Positions 25,510-34,154 of a stretch of DNA of 64,000 nt are shown here, piece after piece. The stretch lies in the NCBI GenBank assembly GCA_029054245.1, contig JAIDFQ010000052.1, forward strand, positions 1 through 64,000, given 5' to 3'. The translations under genes and the position numbers were made by a program. Source of the DNA: Lachnospiraceae bacterium (GTDB lineage Bacteria > Bacillota > Clostridia > Lachnospirales > Lachnospiraceae). The notes under the pieces are model-generated. The model was not told where the DNA came from, searched no databases, and saw only the letters and a list, made by a program, of their open reading frames with translations. Numbering within the stretch: position 1 is the stretch's first letter; each line of letters starts with the position of its first letter.

Positions 25510-26073
25510 TTATTTGCATTTTGCTGTATAAATATTCTTTTGTTTAACATTTTTTATATATCCTAATATTAATGAAATACTTACAATTATAAATGCCATC
25601 AATATCGGAATTATAATATTATGAAGCCCCTTATATCGAAAAAAAACAGTTAAAAGGGAGATGAAAGTTGCAATTGTTTTGGTTTTTGTGCCATATTTTT
25701 TTCGCTCATTAGTTTCTAGCTGTCGATTTTGATTTTCAACTGGAGCAAGAAACAATATAAGTACTAAACACGACATATTGATAAAAACGTCAGCTATAAT
25801 ATAGTATGGCAATATTTTGATCATCCAAAAAGTAATTATTATAACTGCAAAAGAAATTACATAGCATCTCTTTTGCGAATCCGCATGGTAACCGCCAGCA
25901 TATCTTCTTAATGAGCAAAATGTCAACATGAATATAATGCTTTGAGGTAAAACTCCAAATAGAATTCCAATTATTAGGGAAACAGACATGCTGATTAAAA
26001 TAATTTTCCCTCTTTCAATTCCATATGCAATTATTTCTTCTCTTTCCTCATCGGAATATGGTTCTGCAGCCAT
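25510..26073 (-). CDS. AgrB-like accessory gene regulator protease (locus 1)
   Basis: Membrane cysteine endopeptidase that cleaves the C-terminal tail of AgrD and joins the thiolactone or lactone ring. The 187-aa protein has about five hydrophobic helices and the AgrB signature SLRRYAGGYHADSQKRC, with His63 and Cys70 seven residues apart, as the catalytic His/Cys of S. aureus AgrB are. It starts 5 nt after agrD1, the reverse of the classic B-then-D order. It is part of the agr locus 1 unit with agrD1 and is ended by a hairpin. Confidence 0.92.
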   Translation of the reverse strand: MAAEPYSDEEREEIIAYGIERGKIILISMSVSLIIGILFGVLPQSIIFMLTFCSLRRYAGGYHADSQKRCYVISFAVIIITFWMIKILPYYIIADVFINMSCLVLILFLAPVENQNRQLETNERKKYGTKTKTIATFISLLTVFFRYKGLHNIIIPILMAFIIVSISLILGYIKNVKQKNIYTAKCK

Positions 26074-26078
26074 AATAA

Positions 26079-26222
26079 TTAAGATTTTCTCAGTTTTTTT
26101 ACAGCCTTTGGCAATTTAGGTTGATATGAAATACATGGACATGCTGTATTTGCATCCATTTTTGCAACTTTGATAGCAACTTTTTCTACTGCATCTTGAA
26201 ATAATTTTTTTCCTTTTTTCAT
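26079..26222 (-). CDS. AgrD-like cyclic autoinducer peptide precursor (locus 1)
   Basis: A 47-aa precursor found by hand translation. The layout is typical for AgrD: a basic, amphipathic N-terminal leader (MKKGKKLFQDAVEKVAIKVA), the core ACPCISY, then the recognition tail QPKLPKAVKKLRKS. The QPK-x-P tail is shared with agrD2, as is the pair of cysteines. The core has cysteines at 28 and 30, so ring size and which cysteine forms the ring cannot be decided; a five-membered CPCIS or a larger ring including Tyr are candidates. AGGAG lies eight bases before the ATG, and agrB1 follows after 5 nt. The operator-promoter is at 26315-26378. Confidence 0.93.
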   Translation of the reverse strand: MKKGKKLFQDAVEKVAIKVAKMDANTACPCISYQPKLPKAVKKLRKS

Positions 26223-26259
26223 AGCGTTTTCTCCTTTGAATGAAATTAAATAGTGTTAC

Positions 26260-26292
26260 TTAATGATATACTTCGATTAGGAACTTGCTCAC
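26260..26292 (-). CDS. Possible 10-residue leader peptide upstream of agrD1
   Basis: On the predicted agrD1 transcript a GTG at 26292 has a full GAGGAGG ribosome site eight bases upstream and opens ten codons (MSKFLIEVYH) ending in TAA, 37 nt before the agrD1 ATG. The strength of the ribosome site for so short a frame is unusual. It may be a leader peptide, or a relic of an older start. Confidence 0.3.
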   Translation of the reverse strand: MSKFLIEVYH

Positions 26293-26314
26293 GCAGTATT
26301 CCTCCTCGTAAAAA

Positions 26315-26378
26315 ATGGTATCATTTTATTTGCTATACATGCCCGATTTGCGAAATTCGTATATTTTGGGGCGAAAAT
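26315..26378 (-). promoter_or_regulatory. LytTR/AgrA-type operator and promoter of agrD1-agrB1
   Basis: Two repeats of the form ATTTTCGC / ATTTCGC lie 21 bp apart on the minus strand (26350-26378). The extended -10, TG-A-TACCAT at 26315-26323, is 29 nt downstream. The arrangement matches that in front of the PPC gene (28360-28423): 25 of 29 operator positions are identical and the spacing to the -10 is the same. Known AgrA sites are also two repeats two helical turns apart. Confidence 0.75.
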
Positions 26379-31878: not shown

Positions 31879-31904
31879 CGTAAAATTCCTCCTTTTTGTT
31901 TTTC

Positions 31905-31975
31905 ATCATAATTCATTTTTCAACAAAATGTAACCACTTTGTTGAAAACAGCACTCTGGTTGTTGAAAATAGCAC
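31905..31975 (-). promoter_or_regulatory. LytTR-type operator and promoter of agrD2-agrB2
   Basis: GTTGAAAACAGCAC (31941-31954) and GTTGAAAATAGCAC (31962-31975) form a 14-bp direct repeat with period 21. TATGAT lies at 31905-31910, about 30 nt downstream in the minus direction. The proximal repeat is also part of an 11-bp perfect inverted repeat with 31917-31927. The geometry matches locus 1, but the sequence differs (TTTTCAAC here, TTTTCGCC there). Confidence 0.7.
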
Positions 31976-33273
31976 TAACCTTTGATGTAGAGGAAGACTT
32001 TAACCGAAAATTCTCCATGTGAATCACTGATATTCATTTGTCCGTCGTATTTTTTTACAGTCTCTTTTGCTTCCTTTAATCCCAATCCGTGATAAAAATC
32101 ATCTCGCTTGCTGGTAAGGAAATCGCCGTTAGAATCGCGTTTCTTCTTCCCTTCATATGCATTGCGGATTCCAAACAAAAGCCTTGCGGCATTCGTCTTT
32201 ATGGAAAAATGTATTTTCTTCTTATCAGCAGGCAGCTCTTTGACGGCTTCTATCGCGTTGTCGAAGAGATTTCCAATAAGGATATTTAAGTCTATATGGT
32301 TGATAACAATCTCACTTTCTATCTTGATTTCCTTGTCCACCGCGATTCCATATTCTCTGGCAATCTCCAGCTTATAATTTAATATAGAATCAATGCCAAT
32401 ATTTCCTGTATGAATCACGTTGCCCTGCTGCTTAATCTGTCCCAGCTTTTCCTCATAATGCTGCATCAGATGCTCATATTCCCCTTTTTTAAGGTAACTC
32501 ATTTCCAGCGCATAGTGATTTGCCATATCGTGGCGCATTCTGCGCAGCTTCAGCCACTGCTTCTCCAACTCCTCATAGCGCAGGCAAAAAAACGCATTCT
32601 GCTGTTTTAGCAGTTCATTTTCCATGCGCTCCGCGGCGTGTTCCTGCACCCTCTGATACATATAGTAGGTGACAAGATTAATCACCAGCAGTACCCCTAA
32701 AACGATGATCTGCGCTAAATCAATATGCTTCCATCGTCCCCACCAGACCACATGACAGATTAAAATACTTCCAATGGGCACCAGAAAAATTTCAAACCAA
32801 TCCATTCCTCTGATTTTCATCTGTTTCTGCTTCAAAGAAATTCTTGTAATCAGTTTGACAAACGCAAACCAGACCAACTTGGAAAAAGCATTTCCAATGT
32901 AAAGAAGCCCCGGCTGCCTGCTTAAATATTCGTCGGCAGGTACTCCTGATATAGTCAGAGCAAATGCAACGATTCCCTCTGCGATGATTCCCAGCGTCAC
33001 AACAAGGATCATTAAAATCAGCTTATTCCTGACATTTCCATTATACAAAAAGTAAAGTACCAGAAAGTAAATCATACTGGTACTTACATTGCTGACAAAT
33101 GCATTTTCTATGGTTAGATAACTGCTTACATTCCACAATGCGAAGCATAAGCCCCAGCCCACAAGCAACGCCAGCCTGTTTTGATATTTTACTCCTAAAA
33201 GCTGCTCAAACAAAATATGTAAAGTGAATATAAAAAATAGATCCATCATCCACGCAAAAATCTGTGCCTGCAT
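31975..33273 (-). CDS. AgrC-like GHKL sensor histidine kinase (locus 2)
   Basis: Receptor kinase for the AgrD2 peptide. About six hydrophobic helices fill residues 1-205. An H-box RRMRHDMANHY follows (His about 248), then an N-box LIGNLFDNAIEAV and a glycine region HGLGLKEAKETVKKYDG. The start at 33273 (ATG) is preferred over an upstream TTG at 33288 because AGG precedes it. It follows agrA2 after 32 nt, with the operator of agrD2 at its 3' end: the stop codon (31975-31977) touches the repeat. It reads as a complete AgrC; no degenerate catalytic residues were seen. Confidence 0.9.
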   Translation of the reverse strand: MQAQIFAWMMDLFFIFTLHILFEQLLGVKYQNRLALLVGWGLCFALWNVSSYLTIENAFVSNVSTSMIYFLVLYFLYNGNVRNKLILMILVVTLGIIAEGIVAFALTISGVPADEYLSRQPGLLYIGNAFSKLVWFAFVKLITRISLKQKQMKIRGMDWFEIFLVPIGSILICHVVWWGRWKHIDLAQIIVLGVLLVINLVTYYMYQRVQEHAAERMENELLKQQNAFFCLRYEELEKQWLKLRRMRHDMANHYALEMSYLKKGEYEHLMQHYEEKLGQIKQQGNVIHTGNIGIDSILNYKLEIAREYGIAVDKEIKIESEIVINHIDLNILIGNLFDNAIEAVKELPADKKKIHFSIKTNAARLLFGIRNAYEGKKKRDSNGDFLTSKRDDFYHGLGLKEAKETVKKYDGQMNISDSHGEFSVKVFLYIKG

Positions 33274-33305
33274 CCCTTTACCTGCCAACTGTATCTTTCG
33301 TAACT

Positions 33306-34025
33306 TTAAACCCCTTCATCCAGAAGCAGCATTTGTAACTCGCGCATTTTCTTTCTGTTATCCCTGCTGATATCCAATGACTTTCCATTGAACAATACCA
33401 GTTCTTTATAATGAAATTCCTTTACATAATCCAGGTTCACCAGATAAGACTGATGAATGCGCAGGAAATAACTGTTCCTCTCCTCCATCTCCTTCTGTAC
33501 ATCCCCCAACTTCCCATAAAAGGTATATTTCTTGTCTTCACACACTACGGTTATATGCCTGTTTTCACTGAAAAAGTACATGATCTCATTTAAACGGATG
33601 CTGTACCTTGTCCGATTAATATAAAAAACAAAGGTTTCTTCACTCCGCCCTTTCAGATCCATATACGCATTCATGGTTTTTTCCAGCTTCGCCGGATTCA
33701 CCGGCTTGCTTAAGAATTGAAAAGGATGGACCTCAAATGCTTCCTTATAATAATCCTCATACTGCGAAACAAATATAATCGCCGCAAAGACATCCATCTC
33801 ACGCACCATTGCCGCAATCTGAAGACCGTTCATTTCCCCCATTCCGATATCCATGAAAAAAATATCAAACTTGTTTTCCTCATATATCCCGTCAAAAAGC
33901 TTATCACCGCTATCATACTTTTTAATCTGGATATTGACTCCCGCATTTACCGCCCATACTTTAAGCCCCCATTCCAGATCCTCCGCATACCTGCGCTCAT
34001 CCTCGCATATCGCTATCTTCAGCAT
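33306..34025 (-). CDS. AgrA-like LytTR response regulator (locus 2)
   Basis: Receiver domain with CEDE (7-10) and Asp59 (FFMDIG), a conserved VSQYEDYYKEAF region, and a C-terminal LytTR DNA-binding domain (about 135-235) with FLRIHQSYLVNLDYVKEF and the basic SRDNRKKMRELQ tail. The start is the ATG at 34025, with AGGGG seven bases upstream. The upstream 27 residues of the longer frame (to 34106) do not look like receiver sequence. It is first in the locus 2 operon (A2-C2-D2-B2) and follows the XRE gene by about 130 nt. Confidence 0.92.
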   Translation of the reverse strand: MLKIAICEDERRYAEDLEWGLKVWAVNAGVNIQIKKYDSGDKLFDGIYEENKFDIFFMDIGMGEMNGLQIAAMVREMDVFAAIIFVSQYEDYYKEAFEVHPFQFLSKPVNPAKLEKTMNAYMDLKGRSEETFVFYINRTRYSIRLNEIMYFFSENRHITVVCEDKKYTFYGKLGDVQKEMEERNSYFLRIHQSYLVNLDYVKEFHYKELVLFNGKSLDISRDNRKKMRELQMLLLDEGV

Positions 34026-34154
34026 CCCAGCACCCCTTATCTTTATAGAAGAATTATTTGAAATATAACTTTTAATGTAATTCTTCATCCTTGTCCTGTA
34101 AAGCACCTTCCAAAGGTGGTGAAGGGAATCATAGTTCGTTTTATTCTGCCTCTC

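Follow-up and report, generated by a model that had tools for sequence, protein, structure and literature searches.

The window analysed here is a stretch of 64,000 nt from a Lachnospiraceae bacterium (assembly GCA_029054245.1, contig JAIDFQ010000052.1, positions 1 to 64,000), and it contains two complete agr quorum-sensing loci side by side, agr1 and agr2. Judged by their sequences, these are not duplicates of each other; they are two unrelated systems. The most probable explanation (probability roughly 0.72) is that they are adjacent because a resident system received, directly behind it, an inserted quorum-sensing cassette that brought a payload along. The resident part would consist of the orphan response regulator AgrA3 with a paired repeat and a candidate for a short hairpin RNA behind it, followed by XRE-AgrA2-C2-D2-B2, and would stand before an exopolysaccharide (EPS) cluster. 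The inserted part (25308–31094) would comprise AgrA1-AgrC1-[box-ppc-U301]-[box-agrD1-agrB1], where each box is a candidate AgrA-binding site and ppc and U301 are cargo genes. The parts are ordinary for agr and the assembly is uncommon, in that a resident system is joined by an inserted one that bears cargo and has a signal and a switch of its own.

Two complete agr loci of separate ancestry

Each locus has the order AgrA-C-D-B and all eight genes lie on the minus strand within 8.6 kb (Table 1). A first-pass annotation, made from the letters alone, had named two full sets, and domain searches bear this out: the AgrB, AgrD, AgrA and AgrC assignments all score above cut-off. Both loci hold an AgrB, an AgrD beside agrB, a GHKL-type AgrC with a LytTR-type AgrA, and direct repeats before agrD. 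In both AgrB proteins the His-X6-Cys catalytic spacing (H77 and C84 in Staphylococcus aureus) is seen by eye to be conserved. The NCBIfam equivalog model for AgrA gave 32.5 and 45.5 bits (cut-off 400), and the staphylococcal AgrC model gave 16.7 bits for AgrC2 (cut-off 500) and no match for AgrC1. The overlap of agrD2 with agrB2 that had been pointed out is also present, amounting to 29 nt with the TTG start of agrB2 and to 11 nt with the likelier ATG at 31739. The eight genes stand as first described and the limits drawn around them do not, as the set reaches upstream to the XRE-family regulator and AgrA3.

The ancestry of the loci was followed in a quick maximum-likelihood tree of 127 AgrC proteins. 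The eight agr2 rows (window, G009, G035, G034, G010, G007, G015 and G016) form one branch with a support of 100. Fourteen agr1-type rows group together (support 94) inside a branch of 16, also supported at 100, which adds L153 and L154; the second AgrC of locus L136, swept into the agr1 group by its label, falls elsewhere. AgrC1-type proteins (E < 1e-190) occur in seven of the 37 genomes of the genus, this one included. Local duplication of a single locus, followed by divergence, would explain the adjacency, the same gene order and the similar QPK-x-P tails of the two precursors. It is rejected as very improbable, however, since the AgrC proteins sit on the two separate 100-supported branches with the nearest kin of each in other genomes, AgrC1 and AgrC2 are only 27.9% identical, the boxes differ and relatives have agr2 without agr1 at the same place.

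Gene order was compared across relatives. AgrB was matched at E <= 0.001 in 43 of the 60 genomes searched, this genome included, and 143 regions were compared, some overlapping and some short: 59 of the 81 AgrB places listed in other genomes, 80 loci from named genomes, the window, contig C69 and two later stretches. As the AgrB profile was built including a long open reading frame (ORF) fused to AgrB, it also matches some long neighbouring ORFs, and AgrB hits of at least 300 aa were excluded from the pair and region counts. An ORF of about 590 aa lies behind agrB in G015, G019 and G009 and is apparently fused to AgrB in G008 (L050 8841-10625, L054 6227-7999, L079 6653-8425, L086 6714-9011). 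AgrA is directly upstream in 44 of 50 distinct same-strand AgrC-AgrB pairs, and the AgrC-AgrB gap is 112–444 bp, leaving room for agrD only, in 43 of the 50. The gap is larger in the remaining seven, owing to a second upstream AgrC in two (L175, L050); the others are the window, L083, L137, L156 and L202. The other common layout places agrC-agrA behind agrB on the opposite strand. Two AgrB hits below 300 aa in one region were found in the window and in none of the other 142 regions.

Thus, the A-C-D-B order, presented at first pass as unusual, is the one that same-strand loci of the examined relatives usually have. It is not novel either: passages on C. difficile R20291 describe agr2 as agrACDB, the reverse of S. 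aureus, a full system in the same species as a partial agr1 (PMC3754575). Those passages, unlike the situation here, mention neither cargo between agrC and agrD nor adjacency to another agr locus. What is uncommon is the gene-filled agrC-agrD gap and the closeness of two complete loci. C. autoethanogenum also carries two putative agr systems in its genome, which, in the passage describing them, both "appear incomplete" (PMC8748961), whereas the two of the window are complete and adjacent.

A search of the whole genome (3.85 Mb, 80 contigs) for AgrB returned the window pair and a third AgrB on contig C69, and a genome-wide search with TIGR04223 found no AgrD above cut-off beyond AgrD1 and AgrD2. 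In the third locus (G000:C69:78347-78841; L033 8330-8908), agrB3 is followed by a small ORF that by eye fits a Ser-type precursor, and the AgrC and AgrA genes of the locus lie on the opposite strand.

Table 1. Features of the agr region, listed from high to low coordinates
Feature	Position	Strand	Evidence and remarks
AgrA3, orphan LytTR response regulator	34837..35559	-	Pfam LytTR 58.4, Response_reg 46.6 bits; no own AgrC adjoining
Paired repeat, LytTR-type operator candidate	34806..34834	-	GTTACAT-N13-TTATTACAT, 22-nt spacing, directly behind agrA3; aligned in 8 agr2 loci
-10 box TATAAT	34774-34779
Candidate agr-linked small RNA (or leader/terminator)	34693..34767	-	about 75 nt, ends in GC hairpin and GTCT; ends estimated; 16-genome alignment
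XRE-family regulator	34155..34523	-	Pfam HTH_3 51.3 bits; upstream palindrome seen by eye in relatives' sequences
AgrA2 response regulator	33306..34106	-	Pfam LytTR 67.9, Response_reg 52.9 bits; likely ATG start 34025
AgrC2 sensor kinase	31975..33288	-	Pfam HATPase_c_5 (GHKL) 74.9 bits; agr2 clade
AgrA2 box candidate	31940..31975	-	GTGCTATTTTCAACA-N5-AGTGCTGTTTTCAACA, before agrD2
AgrD2 precursor	31729..31878	-	TIGR04223 21.3 bits, cut-off 19; predicted ring CCFFL, then H-QPKMP
AgrB2 protease/exporter	31137..31757	-	Pfam AgrB 118.6 bits, cut-off 23; likely ATG start 31739
Insertion between agrB2 and EPS cluster	25308..31094		5.8 kb; palindrome and agr1 inside
Palindromic element	30720..31091		105-nt arms, 99% complementary, around TwoAYGGAY RNA core (30825-30987, + strand)
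AgrA1 response regulator	29748..30467	-	Pfam LytTR 60.3, Response_reg 34.3 bits
AgrC1 sensor kinase	28484..29746	-	Pfam HATPase_c_5 (GHKL) 81.8 bits; agr1 clade
AgrA1 box candidate before cargo genes	28394..28421	-	0 mismatches to box pattern
Cargo gene 1 (ppc), secreted PPC-like protein	27581..28333	-	PPC 15.7 bits, below cut-off 25.9; relatives L241, L243, L249, L250
Cargo gene 2, U301, 296 aa	26645..27535	-	matches in 13/397 family genomes, this one included
AgrA1 box candidate before agrD1	26349..26376	-	1 mismatch to box pattern
AgrD1 precursor	26079..26222	-	TIGR04223 46.1 bits, cut-off 19; predicted ring CPCIS, then Y-QPKLP
AgrB1 protease/exporter	25510..26073	-	Pfam AgrB 124.1 bits, cut-off 23
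Start of EPS/glycosyltransferase cluster	19031..25203	-	synteny with relatives behind agr2 region; names (glycosyltransferase, Wzz-like) by eye

The insertion between agrB2 and the EPS cluster

A comparison of genomic neighbourhoods in related Lachnospiraceae, which the first-pass annotation had proposed, separates the two loci: agr2 is syntenic in relatives and agr1 is inserted. Seven members of the genus share agr2 in this setting, and in six of them the glycosyltransferase (EPS) cluster then follows. The gap between agrB2 and the EPS cluster is approximately 120–585 bp in five of the six relatives that have both; G035 instead has a different insertion of 2.5 kb. Homology of the window to G035 and G009 ends at 31095, behind the terminator-like hairpin of agrB2, and homology to G035 and G019 resumes at 25307. 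The repeats inspected, 20 direct families and 25 inverted pairs, included no noticeable pair of at least 20 nt bounding the insertion, and shorter repeats were not sought. The resident locus is itself not fixed between the same flanks, as G019 has AgrA2 and part of AgrC2 with no match to agrD2 or agrB2, G001 has AgrA2 only and G012 has part of AgrC2 only.

The gap holds other inserts in relatives, with names assigned by eye: XRE and HipA-like genes in G035 (L081 9604-11588) and a small gene in G009 (L040, contig start). Separately, expression of the EPS cluster by read-through from agrB2 was considered and is not favoured; in relatives, terminator-like hairpins and a conserved sigma-70-like promoter are seen by eye between the two.

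Inside the insertion, next to agrB2, lies a palindromic element built around a TwoAYGGAY RNA core (RF01731). This RNA has 45 matches in the genome, 44 of them above cut-off. Complementary flanking arms, mostly 70–140 nt long and 87–100% matched, were present in 29 of the 30 copies fetched (25 and then 4 more; all but L102), and the arms differ from copy to copy. At least three places have two facing cores (six of the 30 copies), a possible source of their arms. By sequence, the TwoAYGGAY copies are a dispersed family of long palindromes. One further core (C69:79158-79323) lies between the agrB3 side of the third agr locus and its opposite-strand AgrC and AgrA genes; two of the three agr loci of this genome are flanked by such an element.

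Private boxes, cargo and predicted signals

The inserted locus is proposed to work as follows. AgrB1 would cut and cyclise AgrD1 to the five-residue thiolactone C-P-C-I-S, which at high density would activate AgrC1, and AgrC1 would in turn phosphorylate AgrA1. AgrA1 would then bind a paired TTTCGCC box before agrDB, leading to more signal, and the same box before the cargo, leading to payload production. With AgrA1 acting on the pre-cargo box, the cargo would be a private, directly controlled output, exchanged between relatives as the receiver, box and peptide core stay similar. In parallel, agr2 would use another peptide (C-C-F-F-L) and another box.

Two copies of a 60-nt repeat, 73% alike, lie behind agrC1 and before agrD1. 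Their core is a pair of TTTCGCC half-sites spaced by 21 nt, a usual spacing for LytTR sites. At <=3 mismatches these two are the only sites of this box in the 3.85-Mb genome, and the reversed pattern gives 0. The AgrA2 box candidate has a different sequence and a single site at the same threshold, again with 0 for the reversed control. In 13 agr1-type loci (258,507 bases), half-site pairs at 21 nt number 18 on the agr strand and 2 on the other, and every other spacing from 14 to 30 gives 0–3 on either strand. The agr2 repeat before agrD is clear at 21–22 nt (11–12 of 12 letters) in four of eight loci and weak (8/12) in G034 and G010; a script did not find it in G015 and G016. According to a passage on S. 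aureus, the AgrA dimer there is bound to two direct repeats located upstream of P2 and P3 (PMC4227749).

Among 15 agr1-type loci examined, 12 have the box. This count omits L083 (on the same contig as L135), L138 (a near copy of L137) and copies of the L145 element (L048, L090, L143, L144, L146-L150, L155, L239). The box stands before both the cargo and agrD in four loci (window, L135, L137, L142; the L142 contig ends before agrB and L135 has a weaker third box before agrA), before cargo with no agrD or agrB found in four (L139, L151, L152, L238) and before agrD without cargo in four (L136, L141, L145, L156). In L238, two unrelated genes lie between agrC and the box. The receiver-only state is best supported in G010, the genome of L238, which is 89% complete and whose two AgrB hits belong to other loci. 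If these loci work as proposed, such receiver-only copies would make eavesdropping directly testable in gut commensals. In locus L136 (Roseburia hominis An869), the stretch 9277-19345 contains two AgrA-AgrC pairs separated by about 6 kb; secreted proteins that resemble each other are encoded both in the space between the pairs and behind them.

Members of the agr1 AgrC clade often have cargo between agrC and agrD. The A-C-(two genes)-D-B layout first given for agr1 was correct; the two genes encode a secreted PPC-like protein and the 296-aa U301, and their own box, the insertion as a whole and the upstream regulator with its RNA-like element had been missed. U301 has no Pfam match and its single-sequence AlphaFold2 model has a mean pLDDT of 33.8. 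The ppc-U301 pair recurs side by side in L241, L243/L253, L249 and L250. Between U301 and agrD1 lies a gene remnant with broken frames (26381-26640). Elsewhere the cargo differs: Amidase_6 (57.8 bits) in L135, a trypsin-like protein in L137 (19.5 bits, just below the cut-off of 20.6) and ABC ATPases whose NCBIfam matches are all below cut-off, the best models being bacteriocin export (L142), lantibiotic protection (L152) and gliding-type GldA (L151). L145 has radical SAM genes behind agrB, including a YydG-like protein below its cut-off. Peptide-related cargo is a possible theme. PADLOC gave no match for six cargo proteins.

A comparable arrangement is described in passages on C. acetobutylicum, where the effector CA_C0082, a single gene 88 bp behind agrA, is next to agr and Agr-controlled by reporter (PMC10301443); the candidate effector of the window instead has its place in the agrC-agrD gap and varies from one relative to the next. 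Titles and opening abstract lines of the open-licence PMC papers listed describe no agr cargo slot, TwoAYGGAY palindrome family or RNAIII-like clostridial agr RNA, with no search having been aimed at the cargo slot as such.

Several points weigh against insertion of a cassette with a directly controlled payload. In G009 the gap contains a different gene, preceded by a promoter stretch that shares homology with window 30502-30636; the gap is therefore an insertion hotspot, and the insertion in the window may be a stepwise mosaic and not the product of one event. No integrase or relaxase was recognised in 25308-31094, where the ORFs of at least 150 aa are A1, C1, ppc, U301 and B1, so that mobility is inferred from relatives. 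No box was found in L140 (whose contig ends early), L153 or L154, and in L156 transposase-like genes (by eye) occupy the slot in place of box and cargo. The C-terminus of the window ppc is about 30 residues shorter than in relatives, and this gene may be decaying. Binding of AgrA1 to its box and production of either peptide are predictions.

The last two gene observations also fit a different view, that ppc-U301 and the other agrC-agrD genes arrived by chance and that the boxes are duplicated agrD promoters without function. In addition, ppc-U301 has no adjoining agr gene in L241, L243, L249 and L250, of each of which only 2.7–3.8 kb was viewed. This view is nevertheless unlikely, as the box precedes both units in all four cargo loci in which agrD was found, the four loci with no agrD or agrB found keep the pre-cargo box, and a close copy of U301 lies directly behind an AgrA1-type box in G010.

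For the cassette as favoured here, signs of mobility come from relatives. A relaxase (120 bits) and MobC lie upstream in L142. The upstream side of L143 has a serine recombinase, along with a MobA/MobL match that narrowly misses its cut-off (25.0 vs 26.7). Among plasmids, 19 records match AgrC1 (28.5% identity at best among the matches listed), and five phage records match AgrB1 (35.6% at best). The C. difficile phage phiCDHM1 carries agr3, consisting of agrC, agrB and agrD and called a possible mobile agr locus (PMC3901668); its passages mention no cargo, whereas agr1 of the window has cargo. If the proposed reading is correct, a quorum-sensing system can be a portable regulatory cassette, with the payload swapped and the signal still recognisable between species. 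One mobile element that includes an agr1-like locus is present in several copies (L143, L144, L146, L148, L155) with differing deletions, which take away parts of agrC, agrD, agrB and the radical SAM genes. These deletions could mean that a signal or payload was too costly to keep, or could be artefacts of assembly.

The predicted signals differ between the loci. The count of cores took in those situated immediately ahead of an agrB and ending in a [Q/E]P tail, leaving aside other tails and positions behind agrB; in all 25 distinct cores of this kind, Cys precedes X-Q-P by exactly five residues. In C. thermocellum, the ring detected runs from S25 to F29 and ends just before Y30, with a conserved P35, as given in the passage seen (PMC5322536). 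From this rule and that ring, the likely rings are CPCIS for AgrD1 and CCFFL for AgrD2. The cores named at first pass, ACPCISY and TCCFFLH, do differ, and the shared QPK-x-P tail was found in both precursors; the likely rings end one residue earlier than those cores imply. CPCIS is identical in G027 and L141 and varies to CPCIT in L138 and CPCIN in L156, and CCFFL is identical in G035. The suggestion that two distinct peptides are sent agrees with the separate AgrC clades and the unlike operator candidates, each confined to its own locus, and to that extent is favoured on sequence grounds. If the proposed reading is correct, these neighbouring systems, each with a private box of its own, offer a clean natural setting in which to test how well peptide signals are insulated from one another.

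The AgrA3 unit upstream of agr2

AgrA3 is followed by a paired repeat, a -10 box and a hairpin. The repeat occurs without mismatch in the window genome, where the reversed-pattern control gives 0 and two further one-mismatch sites lie on contigs C37 and C38. Across the 37 genomes of the genus, RTTACAT-N13-TTATTACAT at <=1 mismatch has 45 matches in 28 genomes, compared with 14 for the reversed control. Thirty of the 45 were examined as loci and 21 fit a stricter form. In 16 of these, a -10 box is present together with a GC hairpin that has GTCT behind it (ATCT in G016), which is not so in the other five. A relative of AgrA3 lies upstream in 15 of the 16, this genome included; G012 is cut by a contig end. 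In the 16-genome alignment, 94.4% of hairpin cells are paired, as against 44–51% in slid controls. Changes on both sides occur in six of eight stem pairs, in 14 cells versus 2.4 in shuffles. The predicted transcript is otherwise mostly not conserved, except for CATTTCTTT.

The unit may encode a small RNA, or it may serve as a leader or as nothing more than a terminator. The odds are about even that it is an attenuator, leader or plain terminator rather than a free regulatory RNA. The predicted transcript is only about 75 nt long and mostly unconserved, and in G023, G060 and G021 the EPS cluster comes soon after the AgrA3-hairpin unit, without an agr2 match separating them. Furthermore, the RNA candidate was predicted to pair no better with the EPS leader of its own genome than with those of swapped genomes (own mean -23.7 and cross mean -25.4 kcal/mol, 12 genomes); the window pair, one genome of the 12, was the sole exception (0.005 of its shuffles). 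On the other hand, agr genes lie between the hairpin and the EPS cluster in agr2 genomes, the hairpin is retained beside AgrA3 with compensatory changes in its stem, and a consensus terminator scan did not list the window hairpin. The consensus scans performed no better than on shuffles (36 promoters vs 35.5, 6 terminators vs 7.0). The RNA candidate has no Rfam match. From the gene order in G023, G060 and G021, the series AgrA3-hairpin-EPS may have occupied this place before agr2 did, although loss of agr2 would leave the same picture.

In S. aureus, P3 makes the regulatory RNAIII, as stated in a passage on agr systems (PMC8748961), whereas the RNA candidate here is about 75 nt, lies beside an orphan AgrA and is a prediction. 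If real, this conserved operator-hairpin behind AgrA3 is a concrete candidate for an effector RNA in agr regions outside staphylococci. A broader proposal joins both halves of the region and is tentative, with the odds against it as a whole. Here, the agr1-type cassettes of gut Lachnospiraceae would be exchangeable modules made up of receiver, payload and sender. Duplicated AgrA boxes would flank their cargo slot, the peptide C-[P/A/S]-[C/F]-I-[S/T/N] would be common to them, and forms that have only the receiver would respond to a neighbour's signal. The orphan AgrA of the adjoining resident locus would in addition control a small RNA, an RNAIII counterpart in a clostridial agr region.

Elsewhere in the window (46119-46595), a further stand-alone LytTR-like protein is encoded next to ABC transporter genes (by eye).

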